Shown piece after piece: positions 449 to 16,900 of a DNA stretch of 20,109 bases. A program made the position numbers and the translations under genes. Source of the stretch: Saccoglossus kowalevskii (lineage: Eukaryota; Hemichordata; Enteropneusta; Harrimaniidae); contig NW_003141318.1 of the NCBI RefSeq assembly GCF_000003605.2, forward strand, positions 311,798-331,906. Reading direction: 5' to 3'. Position 1 is the stretch's first letter. Each line of letters begins with the position of its first letter. The notes under the pieces are model-generated. The model was not told the origin of the DNA, made no database searches, and saw only the letters and a list, made by a program, of their open reading frames with translations.

Positions 449-758
449 CTGTAATGACAAGCTTTCTGGTCGAAGGTGCACTGGAGGATAAAATCTTCAG
501 GCTGGTGACCAAGCTCTAAAGTCTCATTCTGCGACAACTTTATCAGTCCTTGTAAGTCGGAAAAATCAGGGGTGGAACTAAACGTCATAAATCCATACCA
601 GTCTGGTGGCACTTCGCTCTTTACTCGGTCGAATCCTGGATCGCGATAGTAGGAATTCTCGAATTGATATATCAGATTATAGAAATCGTCCGATAGTAGA
701 TCTTCAAATTGGCGGGACCAATTATCTGGTAATTCGCTGGTCCTCGTGACACCAATTA
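449..758 (-). CDS. Exon 25: DEG/ENaC finger region with the [11 protein letters not shown] motif
   Basis: This exon encodes residues 1326-1428. [30 protein letters not shown] and [13 protein letters not shown] are typical of the extracellular finger and adjacent palm of DEG/ENaC channels. The Cys of FILQC is normally disulfide-bonded within the channel ectodomain. The acceptor is TTGTCCTTAG, entering in phase 1. The donor is CAG|GTGAGT, leaving in phase 2, so this exon is not symmetric like those of the insert. The sequence complements exon 2 without overlap, as expected for two parts of one channel. Remaining channel exons lie left of the window. Confidence 0.93.
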
Positions 759-3700
759 CTAAGGACAACATATAACGAAATGATTTATAAATAGTCCGTT
801 ACGTCACAGGTCAAAGGTTACATGAAGGTATTATCATGAATACTCAACTATTTAATTCTACGAAGGCCGGGTTCACTGTATTATAGTATGTTACCGTGCA
901 CAACTTTGGGTTTTTGAATTGGTCTAGTTGCCAGCCTCCGTCAACATATTTGTATACTGCACAATGTAAGAATTAATTATGTGTATTAGGTTATGTAATA
1001 TATATAATTGTGTAACTTTCCGACCCAAGCGCTCATAATTTAATACGTTTTATACAAAGTAAATTTCAGTACCTTCAATTAGGATGAATAAATGTACAAC
1101 CTGATGCAATCATCTGATTGGCAAAAATTAAGTTAAATTGTATCATTATATAAATATTACCTTCATGACACTCAGTGATGTTACAGAAATCCCAGCCTCG
1201 TTTATCGGCGGAGTCATCTACGTGGTAACACCATGGTCTGACCATGGATGAACTTGTACTCGGGTTACGACAATACGTTGCTTCAAGTCCTGTATAAACG
1301 AACAACACACTGACTACAATGTATGTTCACTCTCCGATAGCCGGAATTTTGTTTTCTCTAATTTTTATTTCATTTTCTAAAATTTATTGGTAATGATGGA
1401 CCAAACAGACACAAGTTTACATTTCCTACAATCCATTTCATTTTTGTAAAAAAAAAGGAAAACAAATCACGTGCGTATAATTTTAAAATTGGATTCAGGC
1501 GTGTTAACAATATACAGTCATTCAGATACACAGGCTTGTCCATTTCAATCTATAGTTTATCGTTTCCAGTTCTTCTCCTTCATCATCATCCAATATTAGA
1601 ATAATGTTTAGTTATGCGGGTAAACGCTTAACCATACCTGCGCTAAGCATCTTGTGCGGGGTGAACTTGGACTTGGAGTATTTCCAGTCGATACATGGCA
1701 ATCCTGTTTGTGTAGTCTTAGCTAGTCCACGATAACTAACACCTCGTCCTCTATAACACCCGATACCAATGTCTATAATATGAAAAAAAAAATATGTTAC
1801 AGATATAATGCTATCATATAACATCCATGTCATTGGTCTAGTCTGATTGGTTCGCTAATGTCTTCTTTTTTTATTTTATTGAACTTGTAAATCCCTACTG
1901 TGGAATACGCATTCGCATATCGACTGTATGTGATACTGTTTTTATATTTCTATTGATATAATGTCCAAGTGTCACATGGACATTAATACGGAATACATCA
2001 GCCAAATCTACAAATAATACACAAACACGCTGACTTTGAACAAAAAACGTACTGCTGAAGTAACGAAGACAGAACAGAGCAATTCATTGAGTGTGGGGTA
2101 AAGGTTAGGCAAGGTGACGTTACCTTCTGCAATGCAGTCAACTTCGTCAGAACCATCAGGACAGTCAGTGCGGACATTACATCGATAATACGGGCTGATA
2201 CATGTACCGTCTTTACAGGTGAAGGCAAAAGAAGGACATCTACCTGAGGGTCAATTTACAGTTCTTATATTTTGTTCATTATGGAAACTCTATGTTTTAA
2301 AAAAGCGAAGTCTGCAAATGTTTGAATACTCCTTACGTCTAACATGTCGAATAACTAATTCAATAGTCTATGATATCAACTCATAGACATGTGTCTCGTA
2401 TTAACAACAGCAATATTTACTTTCGTAAATAAAATGAATAAATAAACAAATAAATAGCTCACCTTCCTCGTCAAGGTAATATTCACAGTTCTCTTCGTCA
2501 CTTCCGTCAACACAATGCTGTGATCGGTCACATCGGTTGAACTTGGAAATGCATTGCCCGTTACTGCACGTGAACTCGCTGTCTGAACACGTTTCAGCTG
2601 AAAATAACACATGAGAGAAGTTTTCATTATAATGATTGGCTGCAGCTGGTGAGTTCACTTTCATCAAAATAAAAGGAGCCGATATTGATTGCACATAAGA
2701 TGGATGTCCACCGTTTACAATAATATAGATACTTTTTTTCAATAGATGCACATAAAACAATACTTACATATACTGCAAGAATCCCGTGGGAGTCCTACAT
2801 CACAGAGTTGCCAATGCACCATGGGGTCGACTGTGTAACACCAGGGTGAATTCTGACCAAATGCTTGACCAGGATTTCTACAATGGTTATGATCGCCCAA
2901 TCCATGTCCTTTCACTTGGTCCGGTGAGTAATTATGTTCATGTGGGGTTTGTTCTGACCACGCTTGGCACGGGATCCCGTCAGTGGTCGTGTTTACTGTA
3001 CCACGGTAGTCGGCACCTATTGCATTCATATAACATTCCCCACCTAAACAATTAAACAGAGCAAACACTTTGTTTATTGTTCACTTGAAGCGAATAATAG
3101 CTAAATAAGTAAATAAAGACATAGCACGGAATGATACTGTATATAATTATACAATGTATATTCAAATACAATAAATACGTCACGATCCGATTGCGAAAAT
3201 AACGTGATTGATTTATGTTAAAGTCATGTGAAAATAACACGTGTCAATGAAGCGCAGTAAACAAGTTGCAAGAAAGCATTGACCACGGTGCATAGTCTCT
3301 GCTTGTATTTTGTGACTCTTTCTGGTTGTATTAATAAAATTCATGGTTACCACAGTCAGCCGTCGACCGATTTGCAATTTTATATTGATGCAATTGCACT
3401 CGATTGTTCAAAAACAGAAACCCATCACGTGATCCAGTCCCCAACTTTTATCAGATTCGAAATTAGAATATACGAACACGTGAAAACAACACGAGCTTTG
3501 AATTCATCATCTCGAAAGATACGCATTGTTACTAGCATCATAGTCACATTGGAATGATAATTTTCCATAACGGACATAGAGCTTGAATTGTATTGTATGT
3601 GTGGTTGTTACATCCTAATTATTTGGTGCGTTGTCCTCATACAGACTGAGTGTTACTTGTTGACTTACGGTAATCACACTCCCACTCGTCACTCCAATCG

Positions 3701-6700
3701 CCGCAATGATTTCGACCATCGCACATAAAACGTTTCTTGACACATCTCAAATTCAGGCACGTGAACTCTGTTCCATCTTCACATATGTTTTTGACTAAAA
3801 ATAAACCTAATTGTATGTTATTTACCCGGTATAATGAACGATTTTATCTAAAAACATAATCTTACAATACAATGTTAAAATGTTAATAATATGACTAACC
3901 ATCACCACAAGTCAGTTGCCTAGTCCCGGCATCGCAGTACTCCCAGCGTGAGTCGGGGTCGGTCGTGAAGCACCATACACTGGCCTCGTTGTCTGGATTT
4001 CTGCAGTAATTATGATCACCGATACCCGAATTACGGTATATATCAGGCGTTCTAGTGTGTTCGTGGGGATCTTGTGATGTCCATCGCTGACAGGTTTTGC
4101 CATTGATGGTTACATTAACCACGCCACGATAGTCATATGCATTGGCGAGCATATAACATTCACCGCCTGAAAACGACGATGTTACCGAAATTGAAAGAAA
4201 AAAACACAATAAGGCAATGAGATAATATATTATGCGATATCTGAGTTTTGTATAAGATCCAAATGACGTAATAAATATGCCATCATATCTCATAACTTTC
4301 GATCAAGTACTGTGTACAATAAAATACAACTGACGATGTTTACTTACGGTATTCACAGTTCCACTCATCTGACCAATCAGTGCAATCGTTTTTACGATCA
4401 CAGACGCTATCAATGGATATGCACATGCCGTTGAGGCATTCATGTTCTGTGTCCACCTCACAAGTTGCTGAAATGTGTATACTATTCGTTAATACATAGA
4501 GTAACCCCACAGCATTACTCTGGACAAATAGTTAATATAACATATATCTGATATCACAAATGTCACATTCTGTTCACCCTGTATATTGATTCAGCAGCTT
4601 TTAAACGCAAAATACTAACGCGGGAATCGTCATTCTTGGGCACGGAGTGTCGTGTCTCATTTGCATTAATGGTGCCTTACCGATATGCATATCTTTTATT
4701 ATGTAATTAAAACCCCTGCAATCTGATTGGTCCACACAAGATGAATTGACTTATGACATCATGACTGACTGTCACATACGCCAATATCTCAATATGTTGA
4801 TGGTTGTACACAATAATTCATTTAAAAAATATATTAATTCAGATATTTCGGGTATTTTCAGATGTTATAAAGTTGCATATATTTGTGACGTCAAATTCTA
4901 ACAATACCATCTTCTCCGTAATCAGAAATATGTTTTATCGGAACACCTCCATGCTGTATGACATTTACACCATATTTACGATTGCTAATCAAGTTCAATC
5001 TGACTACATTACAGCTTTTTTATACAGAGATTGAACGATCATTGTGCGAAAATTATTACACTGCCTAATTAAACACATCCGCCCTAATATATTGGATAAA
5101 CTATAATATAATGATATAAACTTTGTGACAACGTTGAAATAACATTGTGTATGTAATATTATATAAAGTTGTTGATTATACAGATTGTTTGTACTTGGAA
5201 GTTTTGTTCCTACTGAGGCGAGGCTGTCACACATCATAGCAGGGATAGTAATGAGCTTTCAATATTCATAGATTGTAATATTTCTAATATTATTATATGT
5301 GAGATAATTAATATTACACCTTTTAAATTACTGATTTTTGGTGATATGTTAAAGAATGTTACAATATTACAACTCACGGTGATCGCACCCCAATTCATCT
5401 GTACCGTCCACGCAATCCGCAAAATAATCGCACACCTTTGAAATGGGGATACAACTTGAATCGCCACACATAAATCCCCGGCATGTCACTGAAATTAAAG
5501 AGCGACACTAGTTTAAAAGAGTTCGCTTTGTGAGGCAGTGTAACGAACTATATAATGCCGTGTTTGTGCGATGTTTTCACTTACCACACTGTGTCCTCGT
5601 TTCATCCTGTCCTTTGTAACACTCCCTAAAACCGTCGCATACGTTCTCCTTGGGTATACACGTAATTCCCCTCGAACCCCCGTTGTCACACTTGAATTCA
5701 TCAGTTCGACAATCTGTTAATTAATTTTTAAAGTCATCTTATATTTTTCATTTGTATACACATATCAACTCGGCTTATTTATGTCATGGAGATCGAAATC
5801 TTGAGTTATTCATTAGAGAGGCGGCAATTACTTCACAAGCTTTGTCTCGTGTTCGATAACGCATTGTGGTTTCAGTTTCATGGTAGTTATTAACAAAATG
5901 ATAAGTCAATATTTGTATCATGAACTGTTTGAGCTACCGTAACATTACATATTTGTAATCATCATCTGCTATATGCAGTTGTCAAATAAGCGAAACAAGG
6001 TAACCAACCAACCAAGCAACGAACGAATGAATGAATTAATCTAATTATTAACACTAATTATTTCCTAATATAAAACACTTAATTAAATGTTCAGAAATTT
6101 ACGAGTTGTTACTCCATGGGGCTATGTTTGTTTATTGGTTTCGGTTATGACTCCCCTCGCTGTCAAGATGTTGCTTGAAATTTACGAATCTAATTACAAT
6201 ATTAACTATCGAGAGACCAATTATAATGTCATTAATTCTACTCCTATTGTCGTTCACTCATTATCTGTAGGAAATCGACTTTTGAAGCAGAGGACACATT
6301 GACCGTTACGGTCTGATTCGGAGTTATTAGGCAAGGGCACATGTGAAAATAATGTAATAATTCTTTACACAAATCTCCCGACGCTCAACTCGACTATGTG
6401 TTCGCCTTCATTTCTCTTTATACCATTGGTAACGGCGATTCCCATCTCCGTTACCATGAAAACTGTATCATGCCTAACTTTTAAATCTTAAGAAATATGC
6501 ACCAGTTGATTGCATTTGGCAGATATGGGGAGGGATGAAACCCAACACTTGTCTAACTGAGTAAGAAGGCACAACTTTTTTACATATCGATAGTAAAATA
6601 ACTTTTGTAGTGAGTAAACCTACCTTCTTCGCAGTATTTTTCATCACTCCCATCTGGACAATTACGTGTTCCGTCACAGACTAGCCAAGATTTGATGCAT

Positions 6701-9700
6701 TGCCAACCATGGTCGCAGGGGAAATCATCCTCAAGGCAAACAGCTATTGATTAAAAAGTAAAACAGTCGTTGCGTGATGAGATAATAAGCAAATACAAGA
6801 CCAAATACTACTGTAACACCAGTGTGTCTCTTAAAATAATGAGGCAAATAGCCGCAGTGGAATGACAGATGAGACAAAAGTTGTTTGTTGATTAAACATA
6901 ATATGTCAAATGATATACTATATACACGTGTGTACATTAAACTAATATACACCCACCTGTTTTACTTTGATAGTAGTTTGTTTTTTGGTAAACTCCAAGA
7001 CCTGTATCTGTTGTATCAGGGGTTTCTGTACTCATGTAGCAATTACCGGAAGGGAACGCAAAGTCGGCAGAGTGACAGACGAATGCAGCACCGTCGAGGC
7101 AATGACGTAGACATTGGTCTAAATAAACACCTCTGATAACCTCGTCGTTGTACGATGTTAAAGCTCTGCTCACAGTTTTGTGGAAATGGTCTCTTGGAAA
7201 TGCTGGGGAAGACATTGAGAACATTAAGTGAGCGGCATTATAAAAAGCAGCATACAAAACGATATACAATCTGAACTGGAAAACACATTTAGGAAAGTAA
7301 CAAAATAGAAAAGAACTAATATCAACACGTATACATGTTACCGTCGGTGGTCTAAAGGATTAATTTTGTTATAAGACCAAAACAGGTCAACAGTAGAATG
7401 TTCGTTTCCATGTGTGATGTTTATTTCCATATAGGAAATTTTGTATTGCACTAATTACACATTGTAATGGTTTTTTTCACTTGATTGAAATGTCAAATGT
7501 TTATTTTTTTTCCAAACTAACTACTGTAAAAATAACAATATTTATTGCAACGTGCATATAGATATCGACAAATGAACAACGAGTTTCATGAAATTCGCAT
7601 TTAGAGCTACATAAATAATACATTATTGTGGAAAAAAGCGACCTAGAACACTACACACACCTACCTATCTTTATTTCTGAATGGATATACTGCATGTCTG
7701 TTACTAAGACCACATTTGATGTTTTCATAGAGTATGTATTCAAGTGGCATGTCCCAGCCATAGAGAAATCAATGGATTCGCAATCAAGTTTGGTGTCTGC
7801 TAGACATAAATACAGACAGTCTTGCAATGTTTCGGCCACCAACGTTTTGTTATGAGCATACGAAGATGCAAAGCTTTCAAACTGTTCAAAGTGGTTGAAT
7901 GGAAATGTTTCTGTAGGTAAAAAATAATGTTATTGTTAGAGCTAAATTTTGTTCCATGGAAGTAGGTTTATATGTTCTGCAACCCACAGGTGTGTGGGTC
8001 ACCAGGGTGACATTTTGTTTTGAGTAAGACTTATATACCTACGATGAAAGCGACACTAGTAATTCATTACCTGCAATGACTTGGTAGTGGTTGAACTCTG
8101 GATGGTCGACCAACTCCGCCTCAGCAGTCCATGTGTTCTCGATGTTAATGTAGCACGTTTGGCGAGTCTTCCAATAATCAACAGAACGGCAGTGGAATAT
8201 TGTCAAACGTAAGCATGTCTCCATACACGACTCTGTGTCAATGTTCGATATCTTCACCTCGTTATACCCACCAAGAATATATCCCTCAGTTACGTTGAAT
8301 TTATTGAATGGGTAGTTGGCTGTTATTTGATATCAAAAGGGACAATTACTAAATGCACAGTAAATAAGAACATTCTATATATTCAAGACATTTCCGATTC
8401 GTTATTGTGACTTCATATCAGAATATGGTGTATATGAACTTTGCAAGAATTCCAGGTTCATTAGATGGTGATTTTCAGCAACATTTTATCAATAAAAAAA
8501 ATCAGTGAGATACAATATAACTCAAAAGTGGGATAAACGAGGTATTTGGACATTATTATTCGCTTGGTTCTCCGTTTCATCTACGCGTATCGCAGGTGTG
8601 CCTATAACTTACAGCCTATATATTAAGTGGTTTATAGTATTAGTATTAGTATAAAATAAAGAGGCATTACCTGTTCTGTATTCATAGTAACTTGTAAATG
8701 TGTCAGAAACTAGGCCGCCACTCATCGTTGTAGCACTATCTGACAGCAAATTACAAGTTCTGTTTGAGGTATTGTAATTTATAGATCGACATTTGAACAT
8801 GCTTTCGTCGATGCAGCTAACCATGCACTCTGCCTCAGTGGAATTAGTCACAGTTTGTACAGCTGTAGTTGGGAGGTAGTGGGACGCAGTTTTCAGAAAT
8901 TCGCTGTTTGGGAACGTGATTTCCATTTTACCTGGAAATTATACAATGAGTTGATGAACTATGTTGAATCATTGGATGTTGGCTGCCCACGTGACCTAGT
9001 CCAATGTATAACAAAAGACATCGATCTAGCTATCAAGTCATGGTATATAAGGGGAATGATCTAATGATAACGGCACGACTAGCTAGCCAATCTGTGATAA
9101 CAACAATAGTCACATGACACAGAAATCTGTGAATAGTTTATATTATCTCATTGCTCATATTGTGTCATTGTGCTTTACTTATATTTAAAACATAAATATA
9201 TTTAGTTTTTCACTGCGAGAGGGAGAGAATTAACATATTTTTCGAGTTATGAGCAATTGAACAAACTGCATAATACTAACAATTGTGTCCTGAATAAGCT
9301 TAACAAATAATTGGATTCTCAGCTGACACTAACGACTCAGAAGCCAGGACTACGCCTGCTTTACGACTTCACGGCTGAAAATAACTCCACTATCTAAACA
9401 ACACACTGAAACTTTCAGGTCAGCTACTTCTATGTTTGCAGCGGAGAATTATGACCAGTAACACCATGGGTTCTCTTTTGAATTCTATTTTGAAAACCAC
9501 AAGCAGTTTCAACACGACCGGTGTAAAACTTGTGTAAGTTTTCTTGGTACTAAGCAGCGCTAACAATTTCAGGCTTCTTCCTAAAGCAATGCTTTAACAA
9601 TCAAGTTTACCTCCAAAACAACAAATAGTTATTTGCTTACCAGATACGCTATCAATGCATCCAACGTTTTTATCCACGCATGAACCGTCCCCACAGCGTA

Positions 9701-10898
9701 CGAATGTTCCCGGACACGGCACTAGAACAACAAACATCGTGTACAATCGTGAGTTTTTCTTTGTGTTTTTTACTCAAACACAAGATTGTCAAATCATTCA
9801 TTGTGTAATGCAAATTGTTAGTGAGTAAACTGTTGAATTGATTACGTGTTCGTATATGTTGAATGCAAAAATCACTTACTGTATGTATTGCATGTTTTAG
9901 AATCTACGTTTTCACCACATCCCATATACGTACTGCACTCGTTCAGCTGACTAGAACATGTACCATCCGGACATCGAAACTTGCTGTTGTCGCATTCAGC
10001 TGAATAATGAATAAATCGTACACAAAATTAAGAACAACAAAAACATGTGTGTTTCTGACCATTATGTGCTTCATATTTAACAAGGTCCTAGCCTTTTTTT
10101 AGTTTTGTGTCAGAAGATGAAAAAATTTAAAGAAAGAAAGAATCAATCTTCATGAACAATTAAGCTAAAAGCACGTGTTTTTGTATAATTTTGAAATTAG
10201 AATAAGAAATGCGTGCATGGATTTTGAAATCATTGATATGCAGTTTGGTATGTAATGACAGGTCTCAGGACGGTTATACCTTCAACGTATTAAATATTTA
10301 TGTGTACATTTTAGCCAGAGCAATAAATTGATGCAAAATATAATAATTGTTTTCCATAGAATATGATGATTATAATTATTAGTTATTATAAACTAATAAT
10401 ACTGAGTCACAAAAAATGTGTCTGAAATATATTTCAAGATTAAGTAATTTAATAATCTTTAATTCTGCATGATAAATATTCTATTGCTTATCGAATCTTT
10501 AGATGTGCACATATGGCTTAACTATTCTATTAATTATATGTTAATTATATATTCGCACCAGTATAATCTGTAATATACAGTATAAATAAAATAAATCAAG
10601 GAATAGAAAGATTTTACCGTATGTACAATTCCACTCATCACTCCAGTCTCCGCAGTCGTTATTGAAATCACATGTTTTACTCTCCAGTACACATCTTTTA
10701 TTTTTACACGTGTATAATCCATAAACACATTCCTCTGCAATACAATTATATACAGTGATTCAAATATGAAATTGAATTTAACATAAGTAAATAACACGGG
10801 TCACGTAAGAATATTTAATTGGAGCAATCTCCAAAACTGTCGATCAATATTCACATAACTTGATATAGCTATACACTGCATGCACTTCAAGGATGAGT

Positions 10899-10941
<43 letters not shown>

Positions 10942-13900
10942 GCATAAAAGAAGTATTATTCATGATATATTATATACTGTAGATATATTTAAAATAATTA
11001 TTACCATAAACAACACAGTTGCTTTCATCGCTAAAGTCAATGCAATCCGGCACTTTATCACAAACCCATGACAAGGGAATTCGGCGTTTGGACTGATCAC
11101 ATGTAAATCCATGAGTGTTATCTGTTATTTATTAAAATTATGTTAATATATTATATACTCATTTTGGCAATTGTCCATCGATGGCGAGATTCGAACTATT
11201 TCATAATAGAACTTATAATACAATCTATGATTTGTATTACTTACCGCAGTACTTCTCATCTTCTCCGCCATTACAGTGGTCTATTCCGTCACATACTTGA
11301 TATTCTGGTATACATCGCCCGTATTCACCACCGGATGTACACTCAAACATAACACTATTGCAAGCTGACAAGCAAATCATAAAAAAAAAACATCGTAATG
11401 ACACATATATAGTTATGTACATAAACTTAACAACAGGTATGATAGCAAACTTACCACAATTCTCTTCATCACTATGGTCATAACAATCATTCCTTCCATC
11501 GCATTTCATTAACTTTTCGATGCATACTCCGTATGGACTCCCTGTTTTACACATAAATTGGTCAACTCCACATTGACCTGATAAAATAAATCAAATGTTA
11601 ATTAACTGCAATTACAATATAAACAAACGACAGGTAAAGATGTTTAACATATTCTTCCGGATTTTGCAAATTAAAAATCCCTTTATTTTATTTCTTATAT
11701 TCTTATTTTTCCCATTGTGCATACAATGTACATGTATTCTGCTTTGAGAATAAGACTACACCATGCAACCAAATAATGATACACATTGATCTAATATTTT
11801 AATAGCTGCTGCCACGATTGCACGATATTGTAACATTGATGAATACCTTAAAAATTCAACATTGGTGTGTGTCTGTGTGTTCATTTTGTCTGTATTCTCT
11901 CAAATAAGAGACAAGTCTATATGATGGTCATGGTACTCACCATATATGCAGTCATCTTCATCACTGCCATCTGGACACTGCTTAGCACCGTCACACACCA
12001 GATAGGCCTTCAAACACGTGATACCATTACTGCATATGAAATCTTCTTCCAGACATGGGACTAGATACACGAAGTAGTGATTAAAATCAATGTTTGGCTG
12101 TTGCATTAATTAATCTTTCTCCCTTAGTGCCAGGTATTTGTTCAACAATTCAAAAGTATAAGGACTTTAAAGACTGTGCATAGGTGATGTACAAAGACTA
12201 ATAGTTTTAGTTGTTTATTGCTCAACACAATGAGAATGTATTAATAATATCAAACCATTACTATTTTACACAATTCACATATGTACAATCAAAGGCCGTT
12301 TCAAGTGTTGTTTTCTGCAGCACATATCATTGTTAAATGGAAATGTACTTCACTATCGTGACAACACCGATACAATAGTATACACTAATAAGACGCACAG
12401 ACAATGTTGACAAAGTGGTTCACAGTTATGATCATGTTCTTTACAGTGTCGGGATTTTGAAAACAACATATATAAGAATTCCCTTTTCAATCGTTCCAGC
12501 TAACTACCAATCATATCATATAAACCTCCCTATTGGTTGGAATACGTGACTAAACCATTCGACAATTAGAACAAGGTATAATTTCTCTGTTGGTGTTTCT
12601 TATGCACAGCGATGATGGAACATCAAAAATATCAACTCACGATTGTGCTGCGTGGCTTTTTTGCAATGTCACTTTAGTTATTTCATTTATTTCTGCATGT
12701 TATCTTTCTCCACTTGCGAGTGCAATTTCGAGTATCACTTCTTGACAAAGGTTTGTCTTTAGGTTGACAATTAATCTGGTCACACGAGCAGTGTATATTT
12801 TAGATGATATGCTTATTAAAGCATTGCTAAAAGTTTAGTTGTATTCATGTTGTATTTTTCGTAAACAAACTTGTCCGCAAATTGAGACCCTTATAAATTT
12901 GGTAATTTATGAATCTAGAACATTTGTGCCGTAGGCCAAGAAAGGTAGTCGAATCGATTATGATCACAGACGAAATGTGATATTTTCATGGAATGACGTA
13001 TATAAATATACATCAGTATTACATATACGGGTATTATTAGGAATAGTGTGTGTTTACATAGCCCTCATAGAAGTCACATTACCCCGGGGTCTGACTAATT
13101 TGACCAATTTATATTGTTGTCATGACCCTATTGTTTTACTTTGCGTTCCAGTGATGTAGTATTTCGTGAGACGTAATTGTGCTGACGTGACTCATATATT
13201 TGCAAAATTAGTTAAAAATGTAAATTTTCTAATCCCATACATTACTTGATTGTCAACATCATTTATCATTTCCATTAATCATTTTCCAATGGTTGTGGTG
13301 ATTCATGTACTAGTATATATCACAACATAACATGTATCACTTAAATGTAATAAAACAAATAACTTTTGTGAGTATATACAGTGGAATATCTGAAATGTGA
13401 TATATATTACGTACACCAGGCATCTTAAAACGTGTGTGAATTTCATTTGTAAATATGGCTATCATATATCCACTTGTCAATAGCATATTAAACCACTTGT
13501 TAAGTTTGAACATTATATGAACGTCTTTGAAAAATATCATCAACTCTGGGGCTACGTGTTAATAAGAATATGGTTATTGTCACTCATATTGTTATGAAGC
13601 ACCAAGTATGGTCTAAGAGAAAGTTGTACGTCGTTAACTTTTAAGAGTACAATAATTCGTCGTGTTCACACCATGTACCAGCATATTTAGTATCGCGGTA
13701 GTAAGTAGTGACATGTGTTACTATACATAGTTAAAAGCCCTGTTGTGTCAAAGATGAACACGTCTGTTCATTCATGACGTACCCATAATGTCAATCTACA
13801 TATTTATGCAATTTACTATGTTGATACTTTACAATCTTCAAACCAAACTGCAAGAATGCTTTTAAACAACATTCAACTTTCAGGACACAGTTTTTGCAAT

Positions 13901-16900
13901 ATAAAATTGAACTAATTCGATCACGCTATTATATGTGGAAGGGGGTTAAGAGGATGAAAAAGACATTTCTAGGTCATGGACATTACAATCAAAATGAAGT
14001 TATTATGAGATTGTCAGTTAATTAATAAATTGACTTGACCTTACTCGTTATTTATATATCAACATGACTTTCGTGCATCATGTCAGTAATACAATGTCCA
14101 AGATCAATAACAACAATTTGTTAATGTAAATTTGTAAACTACAAATTCGCTGCGGGTGTGTTTCTTGTGAAGCAGTGGCAGAGGGGTATAATGTGACTGT
14201 ACAGTAATTTATCAGTAGCTAGAGACCGTTTTGAGTATTATGGCTGGGACTGTGGGAACATGTTATTACAAATCGAGAGAGGTAAATGACCGCCGATTGG
14301 AGCTTTATGGACTATATTATATTGTACGCGTAACAAGTTATAATATATCATCCTTAGTGTCATCTATAAACGCAAATAAACAACGCGTATGGCATTACAA
14401 GGAATTTGTTTATGATTGTTATTATTATAATTTAAAATTTGTTATTTTTGTCAATTTCCTGACTTATAAGCTCATATTCAATGCATACCATTATTCAGAA
14501 AATATTGTGGGTCTTTTCTTGGGTGATTAATTATATCATACCCGTCATTTTATCTTATGAGCAGGATCATATAACAGTCACGCGTACATAATAGATAACG
14601 GCGAATAACCCTTTCAAAGTATAACAACGAGGCTGTCCGGTTACGTTAACGCTGTTCAATCGCTGTTTCAAAAAGTTGATTGTATAAATGTCGGTTGATA
14701 ATTGATAAGGATGCTGGCCAATCACTGGCCAATGTTCTTGGCACAAGACGAGAGATGGACAACAACTAATATCATTGAAATACATCATTTCTCGTCATAT
14801 TCGTCTCTAGTGAAATTCTAGTGTTTTCGCAGGTAGATATACAATCATTTTCCCTTAAATCTTTGAATTATTTCACTTTCCAAATATTTGGTGCAGCATT
14901 TGGCAAATGGCTTGTATTTTCCCAATAGACCTAATGTTTTGATCATTATTTTTCGAAAAGTATGGAAATTGGTGCACGTTTATTTTGTGAAGGGTCAAGA
15001 AAGTTCAAAACGTTTTCATTTATTTTTTTTTATTTAAATTTCAGCAGTTTTCAATAGTATTTAAAATAATTTGATCAAGCCGAGATGACAATAGGGAATG
15101 AGATCTATTGAAAAAAAAATTGACGAAACGCAGTATGGCGTTTCAAAGCGCCGTAGTTGTCAAGTAGCGTGCACTCGAATATATGAGATAAAAGTATCAA
15201 TCTATTTACCATAGTAGGGTAGTATTTCCGTTCCTTCTACTGCAGTTATCAGCTCTCTGTGTTCACTGTTTCCTATAGCGGACTTACGCAGCTTGTTTGT
15301 ATTGCATATAGTGACTGCCGGAAATTTCAAACTTGGCTGGGACACGACCGCGATGCTGACCGTGCTGGGATAATCCAAGTAGAGTGATACTAACACAATA
15401 AACTGTCTGATAAACGCTCCCGCGGCTACTAGAAAGCAGACGCTCCAAATAACGCGACCCAACAACGACTTGGCTCCTGCTATTCGCGGTATGCCATGGG
15501 CTGTTGTTTCCAAACCAAATTGCTTGATAAGAGCTGAGTAACTTTTCCGTGGTTTTTTTGTGACTGTTTCAGCGTCTTTATTCTCGCTAAATCCGTGGTC
15601 GCCGTTTGTCATGGTTCGGCTTTTCTTCTCACCATAATTTTCACCACTAAAAAAAGTGTAAAAAAAAACGAACATACATATTTTATTATTTGTTAATTAT
15701 TGTTACTCTTCTGGGACCGGGTCGGGTCGATTGATTGAGTAACAGATGCCATCACACAAAGACACCATCATGTGTACGGAATTGATTATTGTTTATACAG
15801 TGTACAAGTCATTTGAATATTGGGGGTTACATGCAATACTGTAATGTACGAGGCGTTTAATATATATTTAAGAATAAGTAAAGGCTTGATTTGTAATTTT
15901 GTTTTATTCCCATTGTAGTGATACTGATATAGGGTAATATATATATATATGTCACACGTAAGCCGAAAGCATAACTGATAGTAAGTTGTTACATTATTGT
16001 ATTGTATTGTATTGTATTGTATTGTGATTTTTGATTTACGGATAAATAAACGAAATTACATTAACGGATGTGACTGATAACTTTTACTATGAAAACCTGA
16101 GCATCCCGTGGGCAGGCCAGTCACACTGGTTCTCACTACAAGAAGTTACGATCCCCCCTGCCAAATGCTGAGGAAAAAAAAAACATATATATATACATAT
16201 TTACATGAAATATTGTCCACCTATGCGGATCTGTTTGTGCAGGAATTTTACGGCCGTATGCCCTTACTGACGTCAACCAAACTTGTTGTGTGGGAAGCTG
16301 GCACCCAAGGCTGACAGGTACTTACACCTTGTCTAAGGGTGACCTGGAGGTAGTTGTGGCAAAGGGTAACATCATTCTCCCAAGTCCATAGACTCCACAA
16401 CCGGACGTAGTTTAGAATCTTACCCAAGACAAATATATACAAATTTAAATAAACTTAAACGTTGCCATTATCAGGTAATACCTCACATGTGAGGTTGAGT
16501 TGGTGCAAGGTTTTTATGACCGTATGCCCTTACTGACGTCAACCAAACTTATTATGTGGGAAGTTGGCACCCAAGGCTGACAGGTACTACACCTTGCCCA
16601 AGAGTGACCTGGAGGTAGTTGTGGCAAAGGGTAACCTTATTCTTCCAAGTACAAAAAACTCCACAACCGGATGCAGTTGTAATGTCGTGTATTGTATTGT
16701 ATATGTATTGAACCGGTTCGTTTGTATGTGTTTTAGTTTTCACCAATAATTATTGAATCGTGCCCAATTGAAAAGCGCTACAACATTTCTAACCACGAGA
16801 AAACAAGTCTTTGTTTGCGCATGTCTTATTACATTAGAGTACAGTCCTACTTTCAAACTGGTGTTACGACAGAATGTTATTTGGTGACTGGAAAACAACT

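Follow-up and report, generated by a model that had tools for sequence, protein, structure and literature searches.

The locus described here raises the question of whether exons for a DEG/ENaC channel and the many exons for extracellular modules lying among them belong to one gene. It lies in the window C3229:311798-331906, a stretch of 20,109 nucleotides that was analysed as a whole, from a genome of 572 Mb on 4,830 contigs; runs of N adjoin both window ends. The original prediction had read the minus strand as a channel gene (gene A) with the HG motif, the first transmembrane segment (TM1) and FPAVTICN in exon 2, the GH segment of the finger in exon 25, and LDLa, PAN and kringle modules between the two on the same strand in one open frame. 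We kept its exon numbering and rebuilt the boundaries from raw sequence; the exon coordinates and the insert length of 1,156 residues held. From the ATG at 15612 onward, exons 2-25 form one open frame in which no stop interrupts the 1,393 codons; the 23 introns between them are all of the GT-AG type and of phase 1. Exon 2 (15210-15612, minus strand, as are all exons of gene A given below) encodes from this ATG the N-terminus, the HG motif (TAHGIP), TM1, FPAVTICN and the first part of the finger, and ends with a phase 1 donor. Exon 25 (449-758) encodes the rest of the finger with the GH segment and has a phase 1 acceptor and a phase 2 donor. The insert comprises residues 135-1290 and contains 114 Cys, and each of its exons, 3-24, has a length divisible by three and is of phase 1-1. 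Counted from the F of FPAVT, GH follows after 1,277 residues when the insert is included and after 121 when it is omitted, which bears out the expectation that skipping the insert would restore the canonical spacing. The locus is well supported as a single gene predicted to encode a DEG/ENaC channel in which an interruption separates FPAVTICN from the GH segment of the finger.

A Pfam scan of the spliced product, proposed earlier as a check, found all three module types above their gathering scores in the product of exons 2-25. Ldl_recept_a was found in 12 stretches (302.9 bits against a gathering score of 24.1, E 3.2e-92), Kringle in three (187.8 against 34.3 bits, E 3.7e-56) and PAN_1 in four (63.6 against 21.4 bits, E 1.5e-17). 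The expected four PAN modules and three kringles were thus recovered, and the expected 14 LDLa modules are reached by adding the degenerate exons 8 and 9 to the 12 that Pfam recognizes. Scanned singly, exon 8 reaches 14.2 bits where the LDLa cut-off is 24.1, and exon 9 gives no match in Pfam.

Two results go beyond the original prediction: gene A extends past the left end of the window, and its architecture recurs at other loci. Exons 26-34 lie to the left at C3229:309124-303346, past a 2.4-kb run of N, and continue in frame to a stop codon; one small exon among them is required for the open frame and has a matching place in gene A and in a neighboring paralog, gene B. The full model of gene A counts 1,683 residues over 33 coding exons, and 527 residues remain for the channel without the insert. 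The channel family ASC (PF00858) was not listed in the Pfam scan of the whole exon 2-25 product, insert included. Exon 2 alone matches ASC over profile positions 3-88 (E 6.3e-20), exons 25-34 match it over positions 136-455 (E 1.6e-71), and exon 2 joined to exons 25-34 gives a single match over positions 3-455 of 455 (E 4.5e-94). The HG motif before TM1 reads TAHGIPRI in A and SAHGIPRI in B. The second transmembrane segment (TM2) of gene A, GGSLGLYIGLSLITVVEF, is encoded in exons 26-34; both A and B have a GxS-type filter there (GLS), and GGSLGLYIGLSLITVVE aligns to GGQMGLFIGASILTILE of ASIC. Both the HG motif and the GxS filter have established roles in DEG/ENaC channels. The usual run of such channels from FPxVT directly into the finger without foreign domains is replaced here by the 1,156-residue insert; we regard this run as a usual rather than a defining trait because ENaC carries its GRIP domain at that place. 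As a separate observation, TM2 of A and B contains an Asn (HVENLIGD and HIENLIGD, respectively) near the position that we take to be the degenerin site, at which bulky residues favour open channels in relatives.

Gene B lies immediately downstream at C3229:298072-274540 (loci L009-L011) and contains no run of N longer than 10 bases. Its exons follow the order of the 33 exons of gene A from the ATG through TM2, and all its module exons are of phase 1-1. Amino acid identity between A and B is 51% in the modules and 61% in the channel, and 126 of the 131 Cys of A are kept in B. The proportion of differing synonymous sites (pS) is 0.88 in the modules and 0.85 in the channel (0.81-0.93 by segment). 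Since the synonymous sites are saturated, A and B must be old, and the ratio to pS of the corresponding nonsynonymous proportion, pN/pS, is given in place of dN/dS: 0.376 in the modules and 0.313 in the channel. The similar pN/pS values and the kept Cys show that the modules are constrained much like the channel. Chance is excluded as the source of the arrangement by the domain E-values, the unbroken phase 1 chain and the paralog matching module for module. The intron of B between exons 24 and 25 also contains a minisatellite-like array (C3229:279190-280700) with repeating translations resembling SWH-FHGT.

The modules of gene A stand in the following order. Exon 3 (11941-12060) encodes LDLa 1, which in the comparison across loci given below resembles the first module of other genes, and is followed by LDLa 2 (exon 4, 11455-11577), LDLa 3 (exon 5, 11245-11364), LDLa 4 (exon 6, 11005-11121) and LDLa 5 (exon 7, 10618-10734). 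The degenerate LDLa 6 (exon 8, 9880-9999) and the half-length, degenerate LDLa 7 (exon 9, 9641-9721) each have a counterpart exon in B. The four PAN modules follow in exons 10 (8671-8931), 11 (8071-8319), 12 (7665-7910) and 13 (6957-7202), and then LDLa 8-11 in exons 14 (6624-6743), 15 (5585-5713), 16 (5378-5488) and 17 (4348-4467). Kringle 1 (exon 18, 3900-4166), LDLa 12 (exon 19, 3669-3794), kringle 2 (exon 20, 2768-3043), LDLa 13 (exon 21, 2463-2597) and LDLa 14 (exon 22, 2124-2243) come next. Kringle 3 is split into an N-terminal half in exon 23 (1638-1772) and a C-terminal half in exon 24 (1161-1289), which ends with a phase 1 donor. Upstream of exon 2, two copies of a repeat of about 170 bases were noticed at 16250-16420 and 16510-16680 of the window, with GTATGCCCTTACTGACGTCAACCAAACTT in common as judged by eye.

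In genome searches the finger exon had 40 matches and the TM1/FPxVT exon had 68. Pairing of 56 of the latter (12 matches to TM1 only were dropped) with 39 of the former (the weakest was dropped) yielded 30 intervals of 3.5 to 32 kb in which an FPxVT exon is followed on the same strand by a finger exon. LDLa modules were scored as the best 150 of 1,658 candidates in the genome. Within the 30 intervals and on the right strand lie 31 of these 150 (A and B account for six), where the area covered would predict 0.05. This ratio is to be read as an effect size and not as a probability, since LDLa matches are clustered and the area expectation overstates its significance. At least one of the best 150 matches is present in 17 of the 30 intervals; six of the remaining 13 were read, and LDLa exons were found in all six. 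Together with five loci chosen for prior LDLa or kringle matches, these six make up 11 further DEG/ENaC loci, and in every one of them the finger exon is preceded by LDLa exons, of which our own profile counts 2 to 12 per locus. The stretches from C1144 and C4796 contain no FPxVT exon, and that from C2445 contains only its edge, so that its donor was checked on a separate stretch.

The accompanying modules differ among these loci. PAN and kringle modules occur together at C2729, kringles at C4796, and PAN modules at C2851, C3786 and C2445; at the six loci L059, L060, L061, L065, L069 and L070 our own profiles find LDLa and neither PAN nor kringle modules. Two related genes on C4507, at 605001-614600 (L060) and 139601-149400 (L059), have ShK domains in their finger inserts (PF01549; E 5.2e-11 and 4.7e-10), and exons resembling F5/8 type C galactose-binding domains (PF22633) are present in the finger inserts at C2851:150501-160300 (L066) and C3786:17901-27600 (L068). 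Two further stretches from L068 had no Pfam match. Of 18 FPxVT exons examined, 16 have as their best donor one of phase 1 that lies 37-43 residues past the F; for several of the 18, the FPxVT exon and not the insert was read. As to the two misses, the L041 stretch ends before the exon does, and L055 has no donor above the threshold. Plausible phase 1 acceptors near the expected start were seen by eye at 18 of 20 finger loci, with weaker alternatives in other phases also listed; the exceptions are L029, which gave no frame by pattern, and L024, which has no phase 1 acceptor above the threshold. Five paralogs clustered on C3473 (L002-L006) and one gene on C2355 (L001) run from FPxVT to the finger in one open frame without an insert and provide an internal control. 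Judged on sequence evidence, the gene architecture is real, conserved and recurrent, and its spread suggests that these channels form a family equipped with large arms resembling receptors.

Two side observations were made in these searches. At C692:78093-78443 (L007), a relative has a polybasic RRRRQ a few tens of residues past FPAVTVCN, which calls to mind a protease site of the finger. The region C4670:35786-41390 contains 26 of the best 150 LDLa matches, 25 of them in one apparently intronless open frame of 1,735 codons, unlike the channel genes with one module per exon.

The inserts were also compared module by module. Across 13 loci the first LDLa modules have a likeness of 0.371 against 0.240, and none of 1,000 random module sets was as similar; the best match of a first module was the first module of another gene in 94 of 156 comparisons against 30 expected. 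Likeness across loci is lower for the second module (0.350 against 0.250) and slight for the last (0.250 against 0.238). The comparison kept L061 and L063, which are without the FPxVT exon, and L069, whose true first module was missed by the profile. Since first modules are alike, second modules less so and last modules barely, an ancestral origin is suggested for no part of the insert but its 5' end. The likeness of first modules suggests a single founding insertion with subsequent growth inside the insert. Modules would have entered by exon shuffling at the phase 1 intron about 37 residues past FPxVT, and the LDLa-bearing form would have arisen once and then diversified into a family within this genome. 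A broader reading, which we offer tentatively and with somewhat less than even confidence, is that the finger of DEG/ENaC channels is a hot spot of exon shuffling in this genome. An intron at a fixed place would have taken up LDLa, PAN, kringle, ShK and F5/8-type modules in differing orders, giving perhaps 30 channels with arms for different matrix, protease, glycan or microbial partners, whose binding would be turned directly into cation influx. Alternative splicing could moreover reshape the arm, as every insert exon of gene A is symmetrical.

The place of the insert in the molecule can be approached through its flanks. The solved chain of alpha-ENaC aligns up to position 150 and from position 277, with the insert of gene A between them. 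The GRIP domain of ENaC lies between finger helices 1 and 2 and is responsible for gating relief by proteolysis (PMC6197857); the peptide pocket of FaNaC1 is partly made by finger helices 1-3 (PMC11026163); and tethering to the matrix is a current model for DEG/ENaC channels (PMC10148893). On these grounds we propose that the arm takes part in gating. Each subunit would have a folded arm, rich in disulphides, that leaves the trimer at its outer corner, in the segment equivalent to GRIP and near the FaNaC peptide site. A partner such as the extracellular matrix, a protease or its product, a glycan or a secreted ligand would bind the arm, and the bound arm would pull or release the finger helices so that the pore opens or shuts, giving a channel with its own built-in receptor or tether. 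The adhesive or ligand-binding arms, three per trimer, that had been put forward in the original prediction would follow from the module types and the trimeric make-up of the family.

We consider it probable that gene A is a single, functional gene encoding a cation-channel subunit of the DEG/ENaC family, about 1,683 residues long and with the 1,156-residue LDLa/PAN/kringle mosaic in its finger, and that the arm takes part in gating. Besides the clustering of LDLa matches mentioned above, several points weigh against this view. The gene architecture was read from genomic DNA. Exons 26-34 are tied to gene A across the 2.4-kb run of N by frame and by analogy with B, and the acceptor of exon 27 in gene A is weak. 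Exon 25 of B fits with a GC donor only (GC-AG), a GT donor breaking the frame; the acceptors of its exons 14 and 15 were picked to match A over alternatives with better scores, and the acceptor of its exon 23 is weak. The three-dimensional place of the insert comes from flanking homology, the alignments with solved chains stopping short of the insert itself.

Gene A could also give two products, the full mosaic channel and a canonical channel made by skipping exons 3-24, with the armed form perhaps minor or limited to certain tissues. The end of exon 2 and the start of exon 25 are both of phase 1, exons 3-24 all have lengths divisible by three, and the nearly complete ASC match was obtained from the joined flanks without the insert. 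These features make skipping possible, but the constraint on the modules is close to that on the channel and indicates that the armed form is used; two products of this kind are rather unlikely. The arm could instead be inhibitory and controlled by proteases, kringle and PAN modules recruiting an activating protease or presenting substrate to it. Both modules occur in plasminogen-type proteins. The flanking alignment places the insert in the same finger segment as GRIP (PMC6197857), and the control would resemble that of the alpha and gamma subunits of ENaC. However, no furin-type R-x-K/R-R motif was found in the 1,156-residue insert, and six of the 11 further loci have LDLa with neither PAN nor kringle modules by our own profiles, which leaves this function of the arm an unlikely one.

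The protein could use its channel scaffold chiefly as a receptor for scavenging or adhesion, with poor conduction or none. LDLa, PAN and kringle are module types of such receptors, and the arm is about twice the 527-residue remainder of the channel. Against this, the HG motif, the FPxVT block and the GLS of TM2 are kept in both A and B, and we judge a receptor of this kind quite improbable. Much less probable still is that the module exons make up a gene of their own, nested within one intron of an otherwise ordinary channel gene. The 3.1-kb intron 2 could hide a first exon; however, a crude scan of intron 2 found no candidate signal-peptide exon in A or B, in A as in B the 22 symmetrical phase 1 exons join the channel frame on either side, and at all 11 further loci the finger exon is preceded by LDLa exons on its own strand. 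The nested gene was rejected on the continuity of frame and phase at both ends, the blank signal scan and the recurrence elsewhere. A misassembly that brought channel and module exons together might be suspected from the 29,956 N within 100 kb around the window, but it was rejected as practically negligible, since no run of N longer than 10 bases occurs between exons 2 and 25 of A or within B and the same arrangement is found on many contigs. Independently of these matters, C4830 (stretch L064) was noticed to be the mitochondrial contig, with COX1 on the strand opposite to ND1 and COX2 (the latter two located by eye). The eight ATA codons of COX1 stand opposite Ile (5), Val (2), Leu (1) and Met (0) in the solved chain 7o37_a, its sole AAA stands at a Lys position, and AGA reads Ser in ND1 by eye. 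The codon pattern presumably fits a hemichordate-like mitochondrial code, which we regard as a lead and not as a test.

With the preferred reading of gene A as a single armed channel in mind, we compared it with known systems. No LDLa/PAN/kringle mosaic in a DEG/ENaC finger was found among the open-access literature matches listed, a scope outside which subscription journals and gene catalogues lie, and no title on a channel with LDLa modules appeared in the open-access literature on ENaC with LDLa. The main text of a study of bilaterian ASICs that includes hemichordates contains neither LDL nor kringle (PMC9949801), and LDL is absent from the text of a phylogenetic study of DEG/ENaC channels (PMC10507113). 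The modules, the channel and phase 1 exon shuffling are each known, and their combination in a DEG/ENaC finger is new among the open-access matches listed. Public automatic gene models may already contain such proteins.

The solved chains nearest to the channel part are those of ASIC2 (E 4.4e-56) and ASIC1. The TM2 segment GDIGG...GxS and the cysteine-rich part before it align between these chains and gene A, but the ASIC1 chain has about 75 residues from FPAVT to GH and no module insert, and the likeness of gene A to the ASIC subfamily is one of sequence only. ENaC has in its finger the GRIP domain, a segment specific to ENaC (PMC6197857), and the mosaic of gene A lies in the corresponding unaligned segment; GRIP is a single segment based on beta strands and has protease sites, whereas gene A has 21 disulphide-rich modules and no furin-type motif. 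A ligand at finger helices 1-3 opens the pore of FaNaC1, whose pocket is formed by the channel itself and not by added modules (PMC11026163). The degenerins of Caenorhabditis elegans, such as MEC-4, likewise have extra cysteine-rich and regulatory extracellular segments (PMC2943245), with no mention of LDLa, PAN or kringle in the text examined, and in their matrix-tether model the tether partners are separate proteins (PMC10148893). The outer helices of the finger are where peptides act in FaNaC (PMC11026163) and proteolysis acts in ENaC (PMC6197857), and matrix tethering of DEG/ENaC mechanosensors is a model that has proved hard to test (PMC10148893). A natural family with long modular finger segments would offer ready-made tests, in which the arm is deleted, shortened or bound and the gate is watched. 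LDLR-type receptors and plasminogen-type kringle/PAN proteins have the same module families as gene A and the same shuffling of symmetrical phase 1 exons. They are receptors or secreted proteases and are not known as ion channels. Gene A and its relatives look like a clear example of domains being inserted inside an ion channel through phase 1 exon shuffling, with repetition and diversification in the same genome.

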